DNA of 64,000 bases from Halolamina sp. CBA1230 (lineage in GTDB: Archaea > Halobacteriota > Halobacteria > Halobacteriales > Haloferacaceae), in assembly GCF_002025255.2 (NCBI RefSeq), contig NZ_CP054587.1, positions 2,170,001-2,234,000 on the forward strand, written 5' to 3'. The notes under the pieces were generated by a model, which saw only the letters and a list, made by a program, of their open reading frames with translations, searched no databases and had not been told where the DNA came from. Both the position numbers and the translations under genes were made by a program. Shown piece by piece: positions 6,840 through 46,935 of this stretch. Position 1 is the first letter of the stretch, and every line of letters begins with the position of its first letter.

Positions 6840-7240
6840 TCGGTTCAGTAGTTGGTACTTGGAACAGCAACCGCGACGTCTCAATCGCTGGCAACTGGAA
6901 CAGCAACCGCGACAGCAACAGCACCTCGTTTGTAGCACACTTGCGACGGCAGGGTGCCGGGCACGAGGCCCGACACAGCGTACAGTCCCCGTCCCTCCCC
7001 GTCGCCGCCGGCGCTCGCTCGTTTCACTCGCTCGCGCGTTGGCGGCGACGCTACCACCGCGACCGCAACCGCGGCGGCGGTGGCACGAAACGCTCGCGGC
7101 TCCGTCCGCGAGCAGGCGTGAGGGACGAACGAGCGAACGGACGTGAGCGAGAGAGTCGGCTGGGGAGGCGTGTGGGCTGTGCGGGGCGGTGCGGTCACAA
7201 GTGGTCTAGCCTCGAGATGCTGTTGCTGTCGCAGCCAGCG
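6840..7240. repeat. Dispersed structured repeat, copy A
   Basis: About 400 bases of non-coding DNA homologous in order and sequence to 26020-26478. Parts in order: TGGAACAGCAACCGCGAC repeats with a 36-base period (6857-6920); a hairpin GTGCCGGGC / GCCCGACAC (near 6955-6977); a GC-rich variable section; a stem CTCGCGG / CCGCGAG with loop CTCCGT (7093-7112); the core TCGGCTGGGGAGGCGTGTGG from 7156; and an end CACAAGTGGTC...TCGAGATGCTGTTGC near 7196-7223. The stem at 7093 pairs C-G at its base where copy B pairs T-A. Copy A is immediately upstream of the minus-strand hydrolase. The insertion sequence begins 56 bases past its right end. Confidence 0.6.
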
Positions 7241-26019: not shown

Positions 26020-26478
26020 GACAGCGACGGCGACAGCAGCTTGATCGTTGGCTACTGGGACAGCAACCGCTCCGGCGACAGCATCTCGATCCTGGGTTAC
26101 TGGAACAGCAACCGCTACGGCGACAGCATCTCGTTCGTTGGCCACTTGTGACCGCAAGGTGCCGGGCACGAGGCCCGGCACGGTATGGAGTCCCCACCCC
26201 TCCCCCCGCGGGCGCGACCGTCGCGCCCGCGAGGCGTCCACCGCCACCGCACCGCCGTGGCTGTCGGCGCGAGGCGTTCGCGGCTCCGTCCGCGAACCGA
26301 GCGCGAGGTCCTCGCGAGCAACGCGAGCGAGGGCACGAGAGAGCTTGCTCTCTCGGAGGACGAACGAGCGAACGGATGTGAGCGAGTGAGTCGGCTGGGG
26401 AGGTGTGAGGGCTGCGCGTGGCGGTTGCGGTCACAAGTGGTCATGCTTCGAGATGCTGTTGCCGTTCGCAGTCGAAAC
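26020..26478. repeat. Dispersed structured repeat, copy B
   Basis: Homologous in order to 6840-7240. It has two or three 45-base units beginning TACTGGRACAGCAACCGC (26058-26150); a perfect hairpin GTGCCGGGC / GCCCGGCAC (near 26159-26181); a GC-rich variable part longer than in copy A; the stem TTCGCGG / CCGCGAA with loop CTCCGT (26277-26296); the core TCGGCTGGGGAGGTGTGAGG from 26391; and the end CACAAGTGGTCATGCTTCGAGATGC split near 26431-26455. The loop CTCCGT is identical to copy A while the outer stem pair changes from C-G to T-A. No credible long gene is present, although the 45-base units are open in one frame. Confidence 0.6.
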
Positions 26479-27729: not shown

Positions 27730-27804
27730 GGGTCGGTGGTCTAGTCCGGTTATGACGGCTCCTTCACACGGAGCAGGCCCCAAGTTCAAATCTTGGCCGA
27801 CCCA
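27730..27804 (+). tRNA. tRNA-Val (anticodon CAC)
   Basis: A full cloverleaf can be drawn. Acceptor GGGTCGG (27730-27736) pairs with CCGACCC (27797-27803), with discriminator A at 27804. The anticodon stem GCTCC / GGAGC has loop TTCACAC, giving anticodon CAC. The T-stem CCAAG / CTTGG has loop TTCAAAT. CCA is not encoded and no intron is seen. It reads valine GUG codons. Confidence 0.95.
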
Positions 27805-44182: not shown

Positions 44183-44243
44183 GCTCACCGCGACGATGGC
44201 CGGAGCCCACGGGTTTTTGCTGGCCGCGGCGTTTCCCGCAGCC

Positions 44244-45437
44244 ATGGAGACGCTCGCACCGGACAACCCGGAGACGCTATCCTTCGACACCGAGGTCGCG
44301 GCCGTCGACGGCCGCGAGGTCCTGCTCCACGAGACGTACTTCTACCCCGAGGGCGGCGGCCAGCCCGCCGACCGCGGCGTGATCGACGATATCGACGTCG
44401 TGGACGTCCAGAAATCGCCCGCAGGCGTCGCCCATACGCTGGCCGAGGAGCCCGAGTTCGAGACGGGCGAGACGGTCCACTGCGTCGTCGACGCCGCCTT
44501 TCGCACGTACTGCAAGCGCGCCCACACCGCCAGCCACGTGCTGTTCGGCGCCGGCCGGCGCGTGCTCGACGACGTGGGGTACGCCGGCTTCGACATCGGC
44601 GAGGAGACCGTCCGCGTCGACTTCACCGCCGACACGGAGATCACCGACGAACGCATGGTCGAGATGGAGCGCCTCGCCAACCGCGCGGTGTGGGACTCCC
44701 TGCCCGTCTCGTGGGAGTACGAGGATCCCGAGACCGCCCGCCAGCGCGAGGAGGTGGCGTTCAACACGAAGACCGAGGAGGGCGCGATGGCCGAGTCCGA
44801 CGAGGTGCGCATCGTCACCGTCGAGGGCTGGGACGTGGCGGCCTGTGGCGGCACGCACGTCGCCAACACCCAGGAGATCGGGCCGATCCACGTCATCGAT
44901 CGCTCGAACCCCGGCGAGGGGGCGACCCGCGTCGAGTTCGCCGTCGGGCCGAAAGCCATCGACGCCGCCGCGGAACTCCACGAGGCCGCCCGCGAAGCCT
45001 CGCGAGCGCTGGACGTGGCGGTGCCCGCGATCCCCGGTGCAGTCGGTCGACTCACGAGCGAGCGCGACGAGCTCCGGGCGGAGGTCGCCGATCTGAAGTC
45101 CGAACTGCTCGGCCACCGGCTCGACGACCTCGACCCCGTGGAGCGCGACGACGGGCGCTGGCTGATCGGCACCATCGAGGACGCGGCGCCGAACGACCTC
45201 GATGGCGAACTGGAGGGGTACGTCGACGAGGAGATCGACGGGGTCGCGGTCGCGGGCACCTCCGGCGAGACGTTCGTCGTCGTCGCGACAGACGGCGACG
45301 CCGACGCCAACGCGATCGTCCAGGACGTCACCGACGAGTTCGGCGGCGGTGGCGGCGGCAGTCCGACGTTCGCCCAGGGTGGCGGCATCCCGGTGTCGCC
45401 CTTGGAGGTCGTGGGCTACCTGCGGAACGGCGACTGA
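44244..45437 (+). CDS. alaX: Alanyl-tRNA editing protein AlaX (long form, with DHHA1 domain)
   Basis: A 397-residue trans-editing enzyme that hydrolyses mischarged Ser- or Gly-tRNA(Ala). The ATG at 44244 (METLAPDNPETLSFDTEV) is chosen; an ATG 16 codons upstream is possible. Zinc-site motifs are RAHTASHVLFGAG (HxxxH, residue about 95) and AACGGTHVANTQEIG (the CxxxH motif, about 205). The region from about 260 includes a coiled coil (LTSERDELRAEVADLKSEL) and a DHHA1-type domain ending GGGGGSPTFAQGGG. This is the long AlaX form that resembles the C-terminal half of AlaRS. Confidence 0.9.
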   Translation: METLAPDNPETLSFDTEVAAVDGREVLLHETYFYPEGGGQPADRGVIDDIDVVDVQKSPAGVAHTLAEEPEFETGETVHCVVDAAFRTYCKRAHTASHVLFGAGRRVLDDVGYAGFDIGEETVRVDFTADTEITDERMVEMERLANRAVWDSLPVSWEYEDPETARQREEVAFNTKTEEGAMAESDEVRIVTVEGWDVAACGGTHVANTQEIGPIHVIDRSNPGEGATRVEFAVGPKAIDAAAELHEAAREASRALDVAVPAIPGAVGRLTSERDELRAEVADLKSELLGHRLDDLDPVERDDGRWLIGTIEDAAPNDLDGELEGYVDEEIDGVAVAGTSGETFVVVATDGDADANAIVQDVTDEFGGGGGGSPTFAQGGGIPVSPLEVVGYLRNGD

Positions 45438-45479
45438 GCGATAGCTGCTAGTTCTGCTAGGGGATTTCGAAACGGTTCT

Positions 45480-45701
45480 TGGCGCGAAACGGGCGCGGCC
45501 TCGTGCCGCGTCCCAGCGCGAGGGATGAGCGACCGAACGAAGTGAGGGAGCGAATCGGCTGGGGAGGCGTGTGGACTGTGCGGGCGGGTGGGACTGAAAG
45601 GGGCTGGCCGCTCGGGGAAGCACGGCGACGCAAGCACTGGAACGACCGAAGGGAGTGAAGGGCGCAGCGAGCCGCGCGATCCGAGCGGCCAGGGGCTTTC
45701 A
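45480..45701. repeat. Dispersed structured repeat, copy C, with long hairpin
   Basis: The core TCGGCTGGGGAGGCGTGTGG at 45555 is shared with copies A (7156) and B (26391). It is followed by a different 3' part: TGAAAG (45595-45600), GGG, CTGGCCGCTCGG (45604-45615), a 65-base apical region, CCGAGCGGCCAG (45681-45692), GGG, CTTTCA (45696-45701). This pairs as 12 bp plus 6 bp with a symmetric GGG/GGG internal loop. It lies in the 350-base spacer upstream of the acyl-CoA dehydrogenase. It may be a structured RNA or a mobile repeat; no gene is evident. Confidence 0.55.
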
Positions 45702-45789
45702 CGGTGTTGGTGGCCAACGAACGGTCCCCGACACCTCCGAATATTCAGAAGTCGGACCGCTTTTGCGCCGCCCGGCCCACCACCCGCCC

Positions 45790-46935
45790 ATGCACGTCCA
45801 GACCGACTCCGCGCTGACCGACGAGCAGCGCGCGTTCCGGGACGCCGTCGAGGAGTTCGCGCTCGAGGAGCTCCGCCCCGAGGCCCAGCAGCTCGACGCC
45901 GACGAGACGTTCCCCGAGGACGCGTGGGACGACCTGGCCGAACTCGACCTCACCGGGCTCACCGTGCCCGCGGAGTACGGCGGTTTCGACGCCGACAAGA
46001 CCACCTACGCGGTCGTGAACGAGGCGGTCGCCTACGGCCACCTCGCGGTCGCGACCGCGCTCTCGGTCCACTGCCTCGCGACCTCCTGTATCGCGGAGTT
46101 CGGCAGCGACGACGTCAAAGAGGAGTGGCTGCCGGAGATGGTCGACGGCCGCCCGGTCGGCGCGTTCTGTCTCTCCGAACCCGGCGCGGGCTCGAACCCC
46201 GCCGAGATGACCACCACCGCCGAGAAGACCGACGACGGCTACCGCATCTCCGGCGAGAAGCAGTGGATCACCAACGGCCAGCGCGCCGGCGTGTACATCG
46301 TGTTCGCCAAGACCGACCCCGAGGACGAGGGGTCGATCACGCAGTTCCTCGTCCCCGCCGACTACGACGGCGTCGAGGTCGGGAAGAAGGAGCACAAACT
46401 CGGCCTCCGAGCCAGCGACACGACGGGGATGACGTTCGACGGCGTCGAGATCCCGGAGAAGTACCGGCTCACGCCGGAGGGGAAAGGGCTCTCCGCGGCG
46501 TTCAAGATCCTCACCGGCGGCCGACTCGGCATCGCCTCGCAGGCCGTCGGCGTCGCCCAGGCCGCGCTGGACGAGGCGATCGCCTACGCGGGCGAGCGCG
46601 AGCAGTTCGGCAAGCCCATCGGCGACATCGGTGCGATCCGGCAGAAGGTCGCCGACATGGCCACGCAGGTCGAGGCGTCGCGGCTGCTCTGTCGGGAGGC
46701 CGCCCGGCAGGCCGACGCCGGGGAGGACTCCCGCGTGATCGCGTCGATGGCGAAGTACTTCGCGAGCGAGGCCGCGGTCGACGTGACCAACGAGGCGGTC
46801 CAGATCCACGGCGGCTACGGCTACATGAGCGAGTTCGACGTCGAACGGTTCTACCGCGACGCGAAGATCACCACGATCTACGAGGGGACCAGCGAGATCC
46901 AGAAGACGATCATCGCGCGGGCGCTGCTCGATTAG
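45790..46935 (+). CDS. Acyl-CoA dehydrogenase
   Basis: A 381-residue FAD enzyme that introduces a trans-2 double bond into acyl-CoA. The ATG at 45790 (MHVQTDSALTDEQRAFRDAV) is used. FAD and substrate blocks: FCLSEPGAGSNPAEMTTTAE, YRISGEKQWITNGQRA, and YAGEREQFGKPIGDIGAIRQ; the catalytic glutamate is in ITTIYEGTSEIQKTIIAR near the C-terminus. Full length. It could act with the thiolase at 55336 in fatty-acid or branched-chain degradation. The chain-length preference is unknown. Confidence 0.94.
   Translation: MHVQTDSALTDEQRAFRDAVEEFALEELRPEAQQLDADETFPEDAWDDLAELDLTGLTVPAEYGGFDADKTTYAVVNEAVAYGHLAVATALSVHCLATSCIAEFGSDDVKEEWLPEMVDGRPVGAFCLSEPGAGSNPAEMTTTAEKTDDGYRISGEKQWITNGQRAGVYIVFAKTDPEDEGSITQFLVPADYDGVEVGKKEHKLGLRASDTTGMTFDGVEIPEKYRLTPEGKGLSAAFKILTGGRLGIASQAVGVAQAALDEAIAYAGEREQFGKPIGDIGAIRQKVADMATQVEASRLLCREAARQADAGEDSRVIASMAKYFASEAAVDVTNEAVQIHGGYGYMSEFDVERFYRDAKITTIYEGTSEIQKTIIARALLD

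Follow-up and report, generated by a model that had tools for sequence, protein, structure and literature searches.

The locus and the architecture of T3

The window, that is, the whole stretch of 64,000 nucleotides analyzed here, spans C1:2170001-2234000 of the source genome (G000), which measures 3.47 Mb and is divided into four contigs. All features described below for the junction lie on the + strand. The upstream gene (44196-45437), which from its protein sequence we take to be an alaX-like alanyl-tRNA editing gene, is followed by a gene at 45790-46935 that, again judged from the protein sequence, presumably is acyl-CoA-dehydrogenase-like (acd). Between them lies a stretch (45438-45749) that occurs in the source genome and in the congener G279 and is missing from the alaX-acd junction of the congeners G292, G042, and G089. 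It consists of a head module (45480-45589), a hairpin domain named T3 (45590-45708), and about 40 bp of additional flank on each side. The head contains hairpins and the core TCGGCTGGGGAGG at 45555, while T3 runs from GGGACTGAAAGGGG to GGGGCTTTCACGGTGTT. The last segment before acd (45750-45789) is promoter-proximal sequence that is kept in congeners without the element.

T3 is closed by an outer 6-bp stem formed by TGAAAG (45595-45600) and CTTTCA (45696-45701), which is separated by an unpaired spacer, GGG at 45601-45603 opposite GGG at 45693-45695, from a covarying 13-bp stem (45604-45616 with 45680-45692). A preliminary description of this DNA had noted a 12-bp plus 6-bp stem around a GGG/GGG loop; this stem is indeed there (45595-45701), and the longer part has one G·T pair in addition to its 12 Watson-Crick pairs, the whole belonging to the larger T3 fold. 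The enclosed region of about 65 bases, reported in the same description, is likewise present (inner part, 45617-45679), but it is not unstructured, as it carries further short covarying helices between A/G-rich internal loops. In the predicted folds, the tip of the window copy is a C(GAA)G loop by RNA parameters and a four-base loop by DNA parameters. The window T3 folded better than 200 of 200 dinucleotide shuffles on both strands.

The head is shared with a T1/T2 sister element

The core TCGGCTGGGGAGGCGTGTGG occurs exactly at 7156 and 45555 of the window and with two mismatches at 26391, against a chance expectation of 0.02. Across the whole genome, the head pattern gave 77 exact matches, all 77 of them on contig C1, which under an even spread by length has a probability of 1e-6; at up to two mismatches there were 99 matches versus 11 for a reversed control. 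Intergenic positions accounted for 82 of the 83 matches examined, the sole genic one (2179896) being a chance match. Nineteen head copies continue into a T3 end, and the other 63 intergenic heads were assigned by eye, among the matches listed, to T1/T2 ends (GCGGTCACAAGTGGTC...). The latter include both further copies in the window, copy A (head core 7156-7175, + strand, followed by the T1-type end GCGGTCACAAGTGGTC) and copy B (26391-26410, + strand, also with a T1-type end). Thus, the core that had been described as common to copies A and B and the acd-proximal copy is shared as head core, but A and B lack T3 and end in other modules.

The T1/T2 sister, found at about 63 places on C1, has a multi-hairpin core of about 250 nt with inverted closing arms, CCACTTGTGACCGCA and TGCGGTCACAAGTGG. 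By pattern, 50 of the 63 copies also possess a left arm reverse-complementary to their right end; these measure 226 to 639 nt (median, 251), and the closing stem was counted as formed in 49. Some T1/T2 copies carry outer units such as CAGCATCTCGATCGTTGAC in tandem repeats. The next gene runs towards the end of the element in 47 of 63 T1/T2 copies versus 5 of 19 T3 copies (Fisher p 0.00025); in these 47 T1/T2 copies, the right end of the sister faces the 3′ end of a gene.

T3 pairing is conserved by compensatory change

The source genome contains 20 full T3 copies by pattern and 22 matches to the covariance model described below, one of which is weak and lies on C3. Fourteen of the 20 were aligned without a structure model, copies with large inserts being left out; as the pattern used fixes both ends, the invariance of the ends in this alignment is partly a product of selection. 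RNAalifold on the 14 copies yielded 33 pairs, 19 of them with two-sided changes, and the purines of the inner loops were invariant. A covariance model (R1) built on these copies was then run on 96 loci, namely, 95 loci of other haloarchaea, congeners among them, and one from the source genome (L117, with two matches), and returned 115 matches. Some of the loci came from a 17-mer scan, from which we took the 80 of 120 stretches that were listed and dropped 14 bacterial ones as chance 17-mer matches.

In the 115-copy alignment, which is fitted to the covariance model and leans towards it, 95.9% of the cells were paired versus 71.5% after shuffling, and two-sided changes were found in 808 cells versus 219, with at least one such change in 32 of the 33 pairs. 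None of 500 shuffles attained any of the five observed covariation values, and sliding the partners by 1 to 3 columns lowered the pairing to 28 to 52%. The inner five pairs of the outer TGAAAG/CTTTCA box are nearly fixed in these copies, and the GGG/GGG spacer is kept in 102 of 115. Because the scan loci are biased towards carriers of the 17-mer, the spacer was checked separately on the 56 copies without it, where GGG/GGG was found in 45, and in 47 the spacer was 3+3 and allowed no more than one pair. These data showed that the pairing of T3 is conserved by compensatory change, and the alignment of homologous copies with structure prediction that the preliminary description had proposed as a check thus came out clearly on the side of conserved pairing.

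A hairpin-less form, ACTGAAAGGGGCTTTCAC, with a single GGGG left, was found in 5 of 292 genomes, at one site in each (C1:989105 of the source genome in L352, and the loci L351, L353, L354, and L355). Slippage between the GGGG repeats on either side, or a deletion from one to the other, would be expected to give such a form. Nested perfect palindromes (around GAGAGCTTCGCTCTC and AGAAATCTCCGATTTCT) lie inside the T3 loops at 988776, 2020718, 2131900, 2140474, 2679873, and 1647762, and some of them are common to several copies. At three places on C1, the T3 tail recurs once, 51 to 66 bp further on and with zero to two mismatches (1052306/1052372, 1647909/1647960, and 2131655/2131721).

Distribution of T3 and inverted pairs

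The preliminary description had mentioned TGGGACTGAAAGGGG sequences in several haloarchaeal genomes and supposed that they were widespread. Such sequences are present in other haloarchaea, and at E ≤ 0.001, with up to 12 candidates scored per genome, R1 matched 242 of 292 genomes sampled from the class and 65 of 77 genera. In a sample of the phylum, 58 of 392 genomes matched at E ≤ 1e-6, all 58 in the order of the window; the 314 negatives of this sample are given only as a total, so that those outside the order are not counted apart. Among plasmids, 33 records matched; 30 were haloarchaeal among the matches listed, and in 26 of these the matched stretch overlaps no annotated feature. Phages gave no T3 match, and a phage-borne element was dismissed on this ground.

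In other genera, 17 of the 96 loci carry T3 in inverted pairs, with the 5′ ends facing each other 23 to 36 bp apart; the head-linked T3 copies of the source genome do not form such pairs. T3 pairs and the T1/T2 sister element are both inverted repeats. The center of the T3 pairs, GTCCCACCC..GGGTGGGACTGAAAG (e.g., L122:1449-1516), may resemble a haloarchaeal CRISPR repeat, and ..GTGGGACTGAAAG.. may be similar to the 3′ end of such repeats.

Occupied and empty junctions among congeners

The alaX-acd junction was compared in seven genomes of the genus. Two of them, the source genome and G279, carry the element. In G292, G042, and G089, the same two genes lie about 48 to 59 bp apart and there is no element, and in G240 and G190, the element is missing and another gene lies upstream of acd. 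The acd promoter-proximal sequence, AGTCGGACCG[C/T]TTTTGCGCC, is conserved throughout the seven genomes, and in the window it sits between T3 and acd. By eye, the elements of the source genome and G279 at this junction differ in their stems while the pairing is largely kept; the stem of the G279 orthologue resembles that of other copies in the source genome.

Further junctions were checked where both flanks could be aligned in the fetched stretches. G292 is empty at no fewer than 10 sites occupied in the source genome, including two convergent gene pairs that overlap there by 7 to 8 bp, and its gap of 953 bp at site 2196391 contains no element motif. Its fetched 300 kb contained neither head nor T3, and its whole genome gave three model matches (77, 37, and 33 bits). 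In the fetched 300 kb of G042, sites 2131936, 2140439, 2165389, 2329877, 2364676, and 2196391 of the source genome are occupied, 2215555 is compactly empty, and 2309077 and 2324758 correspond to gaps of 887 and 1701 bp without motifs. Loci around T3 of G042 and G240 also match occupied junctions of the source genome. The number of T3 model matches per genome in the genus was 22, 18, 14, 5, 3, 3, and 1; the three matches of G292 stand against up to 22 in congeners at similar distance.

T3 is thus mobile at the scale of the genus, as seen from its presence and absence at orthologous junctions. The tree of the seven congeners has no supported fork and does not separate gain from loss at a given junction. 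The preliminary description had named random placement with transposon-like target duplications as contrary evidence; no target duplication was recognizable at the empty sites, where the ends of the element could not be fixed exactly.

The + strand of T3 and the nature of its tip

The non-Watson-Crick cells of the 115 copies comprised 183 G·T, 35 A·C, and 114 others, or 127 G·T and 34 A·C after removal of the outermost pair; three columns give much of this G·T excess, and the model-fitted alignment may lean to G·U. Counted by pair, G·T exceeded A·C in 22, the reverse held in 4, and 7 were ties (sign test p 0.0005). The 14 copies of the source genome showed 13 G·T versus 3 A·C. Selection on a double-stranded palindrome should give no preference between G·T and A·C, and we therefore conclude that it is probably the + strand of T3 that folds. 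Folding energies support this conclusion, the + strand being lower in 116 of 131 distinct copies as RNA and in 97 of 131 as DNA. The window copy itself is a counter-case, as against its own dinucleotide shuffles the − strand (z −6.7 as RNA and −4.9 as DNA) scored at least as strongly as the + strand (−5.6 and −3.8).

RNA folding parameters are not known to give a bonus for GNA loops. By these parameters, the 131 distinct copies had 130 triloops, 91 of which were C(GNA)G (GAA, 54; GGA, 19; GTA, 10; GCA, 8), along with 14 tetraloops, and the mirror types C(TTC)G and C(TCC)G together numbered 10 among the matches listed. DNA parameters gave 88 triloops, with at least 37 C(GNA)G and, among the matches listed, 11 C(TNC)G, and 47 tetraloops. 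When exact stems were counted instead, C(GNA)G outnumbered its mirror by 220 to 11 (stems of at least 2 bp), 57 to 11 (3 bp), and 22 to 10 (4 bp). As background, triloop hairpins closed by C-G on a stem of at least 6 were counted in 300 kb of G292 that contain neither head nor T3, where 5 of 120 were C(GNA)G, in 300 kb of G042, which bears the element (15 of 123), and in the window (1 of 24). GNA loops are described as giving rise to extraordinarily stable DNA mini-hairpins in the excerpted text of PMC4686876. The G·T excess and the C(GNA)G tips together therefore lead us to prefer single-stranded DNA to RNA as the form in which T3 would work.

Search for a partner enzyme and for known families

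Around T3, we grouped 260 proteins from 80 loci, those of the source genome included. No cluster was present in more than 4 loci, and none looked transposase-like by eye; the clusters appeared, again by eye, to be orthologous neighbors of related species or members of common superfamilies (e.g., short-chain dehydrogenases). On this count, a recurrent neighboring transposase was ruled out, and the same proteins included no parent transposon for T3 or for the sister inverted repeats. Neither a T3 start nor a head lies within about 1.5 kb of any of the 10 Y1_Tnp matches of the genome, and one of these loci (L328) carries a T1-type end motif. TnpB-domain matches number 50, of which 33 lie on C2-C4; the 12 loci taken from them likewise lack both over the same distance, and one (L276) has a short tail motif. 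R1 gave no match at E ≤ 0.01 in these 12 loci, the best one, a partial match, having E 0.028. The genome also has 13 Phage_integrase (tyrosine-recombinase) matches, the closest of which, judged by coordinates, is separated from a T3 by about 6.5 kb.

At the gathering threshold, Rfam 15 yielded only a tRNA at 27730 in the window, and the segment 45440-45800 had no match at E ≤ 10; with no covariance-model match, a known Rfam family was excluded. The preliminary description had held the repeat to be probably undescribed in function; in the open-licence literature searched (supplements excepted), no description of it was found, and a search of printed papers for six element strings returned, among the matches listed, no title on haloarchaeal repeats. 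Papers reportedly exist on integrons in Archaea and on archaeal tyrosine recombinases.

Interpretation and competing explanations

We consider that head and T3 at the alaX-acd junction represent a single copy in a family of haloarchaeal mosaic repeats, order-wide and intergenic, with a BIME/REPIN-like layout, in which T3 serves as a strand-specific single-stranded-DNA hairpin for a putative enzyme, a reading to which we give about an even chance of being right. In such a scheme, the + strand of T3 would fold once exposed as a single strand, as may happen in incoming DNA or at a replication fork. A putative enzyme would recognize the folded strand and cut or rejoin single-stranded hairpins, in the manner of Y1/HUH enzymes on REPs and of IntI on attC, and this enzyme, or recombination between copies, may carry the element into gene junctions. 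A bolder version, which we hold only tentatively and regard as rather doubtful in its entirety, is that haloarchaea possess a hairpin recombination or transposition system of their own for single-stranded DNA, related by descent neither to IntI/attC nor to RAYT/REP, of which T3 would be the strand-specific site, and that a putative archaeal enzyme moved and maintained T3 at junctions across the order.

Strong covariation with a conserved GGG/GGG spacer is also what one would look for in a structured RNA, either a multi-copy non-coding RNA or a transcript element whose fold is selected at the RNA level, and the G-U-type intermediates on one strand, as well as the + strand z value of −5.6, fit such an RNA. 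However, T3 lies beside many unrelated genes and comes and goes between congeners, the acd promoter-proximal sequence sits between it and acd, and only 10 of the 19 copies in the source genome have their upstream gene on the same strand. Moreover, the tips are mostly C(GNA)G triloops, with only 14 tetraloops in 131 copies by RNA parameters, and Rfam is blank even at E 10. We thus regard a structured RNA as unlikely, if somewhat less so than the other alternatives.

Less probable still is a passive, functionless palindrome in DNA that involves no enzyme, its arms staying complementary through gene conversion among copies and template-switch (quasi-palindrome) correction. The recurrence of stem types, with the G279 orthologue resembling other copies of the source genome, the nested palindromes in the loops, and the single-GGGG forms in 5 of 292 genomes, as slippage would give, all accord with such a process. 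Template switching would, however, erase mismatches, yet GGG/GGG is retained in 45 of the 56 copies without the 17-mer; the 14 copies do not vary in their inner-loop purines, the G-T intermediates suggest stepwise change, and T3 has been kept over 65 genera.

Haloarchaea commonly carry elements of the IS200/IS605 type, which have palindromes near their ends, as set out in an excerpt of PMC3119063, and the genome has 50 TnpB-domain matches, with a short tail motif at 1 of the 12 loci taken. T3 might on these grounds be the end of such an element (a PATE, or a solo TnpB omegaRNA or right end). This identification was rejected and seems very improbable, since R1 was blank at E ≤ 0.01 in the 12 TnpB loci taken, the ten Y1 loci lack T3 start and head, and the contig distributions differ: all 77 exact heads and 21 of the 22 T3 matches are on C1 versus 33 of the 50 TnpB matches on C2-C4.

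The weakest candidate is control of the downstream metabolic gene by T3 as an attenuator or, as the preliminary description had considered, a regulatory leader: the gene downstream of T3 is on the same strand in 14 of 19 copies of the source genome, but elsewhere the count is 35 same versus 24 opposite (61 copies by a strict T3 pattern that finds fewer than the model, 2 of them without a gene), the downstream genes are varied, and at acd itself the junction is empty in three congeners that keep intact the promoter-proximal sequence lying between T3 and the gene, so that a leader is rejected for acd and very improbable in general. We found no support for regulation of acd by T3. Among the possibilities originally raised, small RNA, leader, or mobile repeat, a mobile-type repeat is therefore the one best supported, a small RNA being less so in view of the G·T excess and the C(GNA)G tips.

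If T3 is a strand-specific hairpin in single-stranded DNA, as we prefer to think, a covarying structure present in about four-fifths of the sampled haloarchaeal genomes, reaching about 20 copies per genome in the genus examined, and with DNA-type tips would be a natural site for an archaeal single-stranded DNA enzyme and would give a direct handle on change in haloarchaeal intergenic regions. The covariance model, together with the empty and occupied junctions, makes the idea testable. There is also a warning for annotators here: covariation by itself is no proof of RNA, because a hairpin in single-stranded DNA can covary likewise.

Comparison with known systems

With the REP/REPIN/BIME elements of RAYT systems, as presented in an excerpt of PMC6006769, the family shares intergenic hairpins in tens of copies, a mosaic make-up, inverted pairs with a short spacer, and the logic of a hairpin formed in a single strand. 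The definition in that excerpt names a GT[AG]G foot and a TnpA-REP gene beside the repeats (PMC6006769). T3, by contrast, has no GT[AG]G foot and usually begins with GGGAC; its stem is longer, and it spans an archaeal order. In the 56 copies without the 17-mer, the 5′ feet were GGGAC (34), GGGAA (6), GAGAG (3), and others, with no GT[AG]G start among the ten commonest feet listed, while the copies of the source genome, having been picked with GGG[AG]C fixed, are uninformative on this point. T3 further differs from RAYT systems in that, in this genome, neither T3 nor head lies beside Y1 genes.

The outer-box core of attC sites is AAC/GTT. T3 has instead TGAAAG/CTTTCA as its outer box, and its spacer is a symmetric GGG/GGG; it is dispersed rather than arranged in cassette arrays, and in this genome there is no adjacent integrase. 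What it has in common with attC, as portrayed in an excerpt of PMC2727003, is a variable sequence with a conserved single-strand fold, a short outer box, an unpaired central spacer, a longer inner box, a variable tip, and one active strand.

The PATEs, MITEs, and SMRs of Haloquadratum, according to the excerpt of PMC3119063, are also haloarchaeal repeats free of transposase, several of them with palindromes or inverted repeats. In contrast to these, T3 has an order-wide covarying fold, and neither a link to IS605 ends nor a target duplication was found for it. The C(GNA)G tip on the + strand of T3 is shared with the GNA-loop DNA mini-hairpins, which in the excerpted part of PMC4686876 are put to use in aptamers, whereas here the loop caps a natural genomic hairpin. 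Thus, T3 is REPIN-like and attC-like in logic and falls under neither definition.
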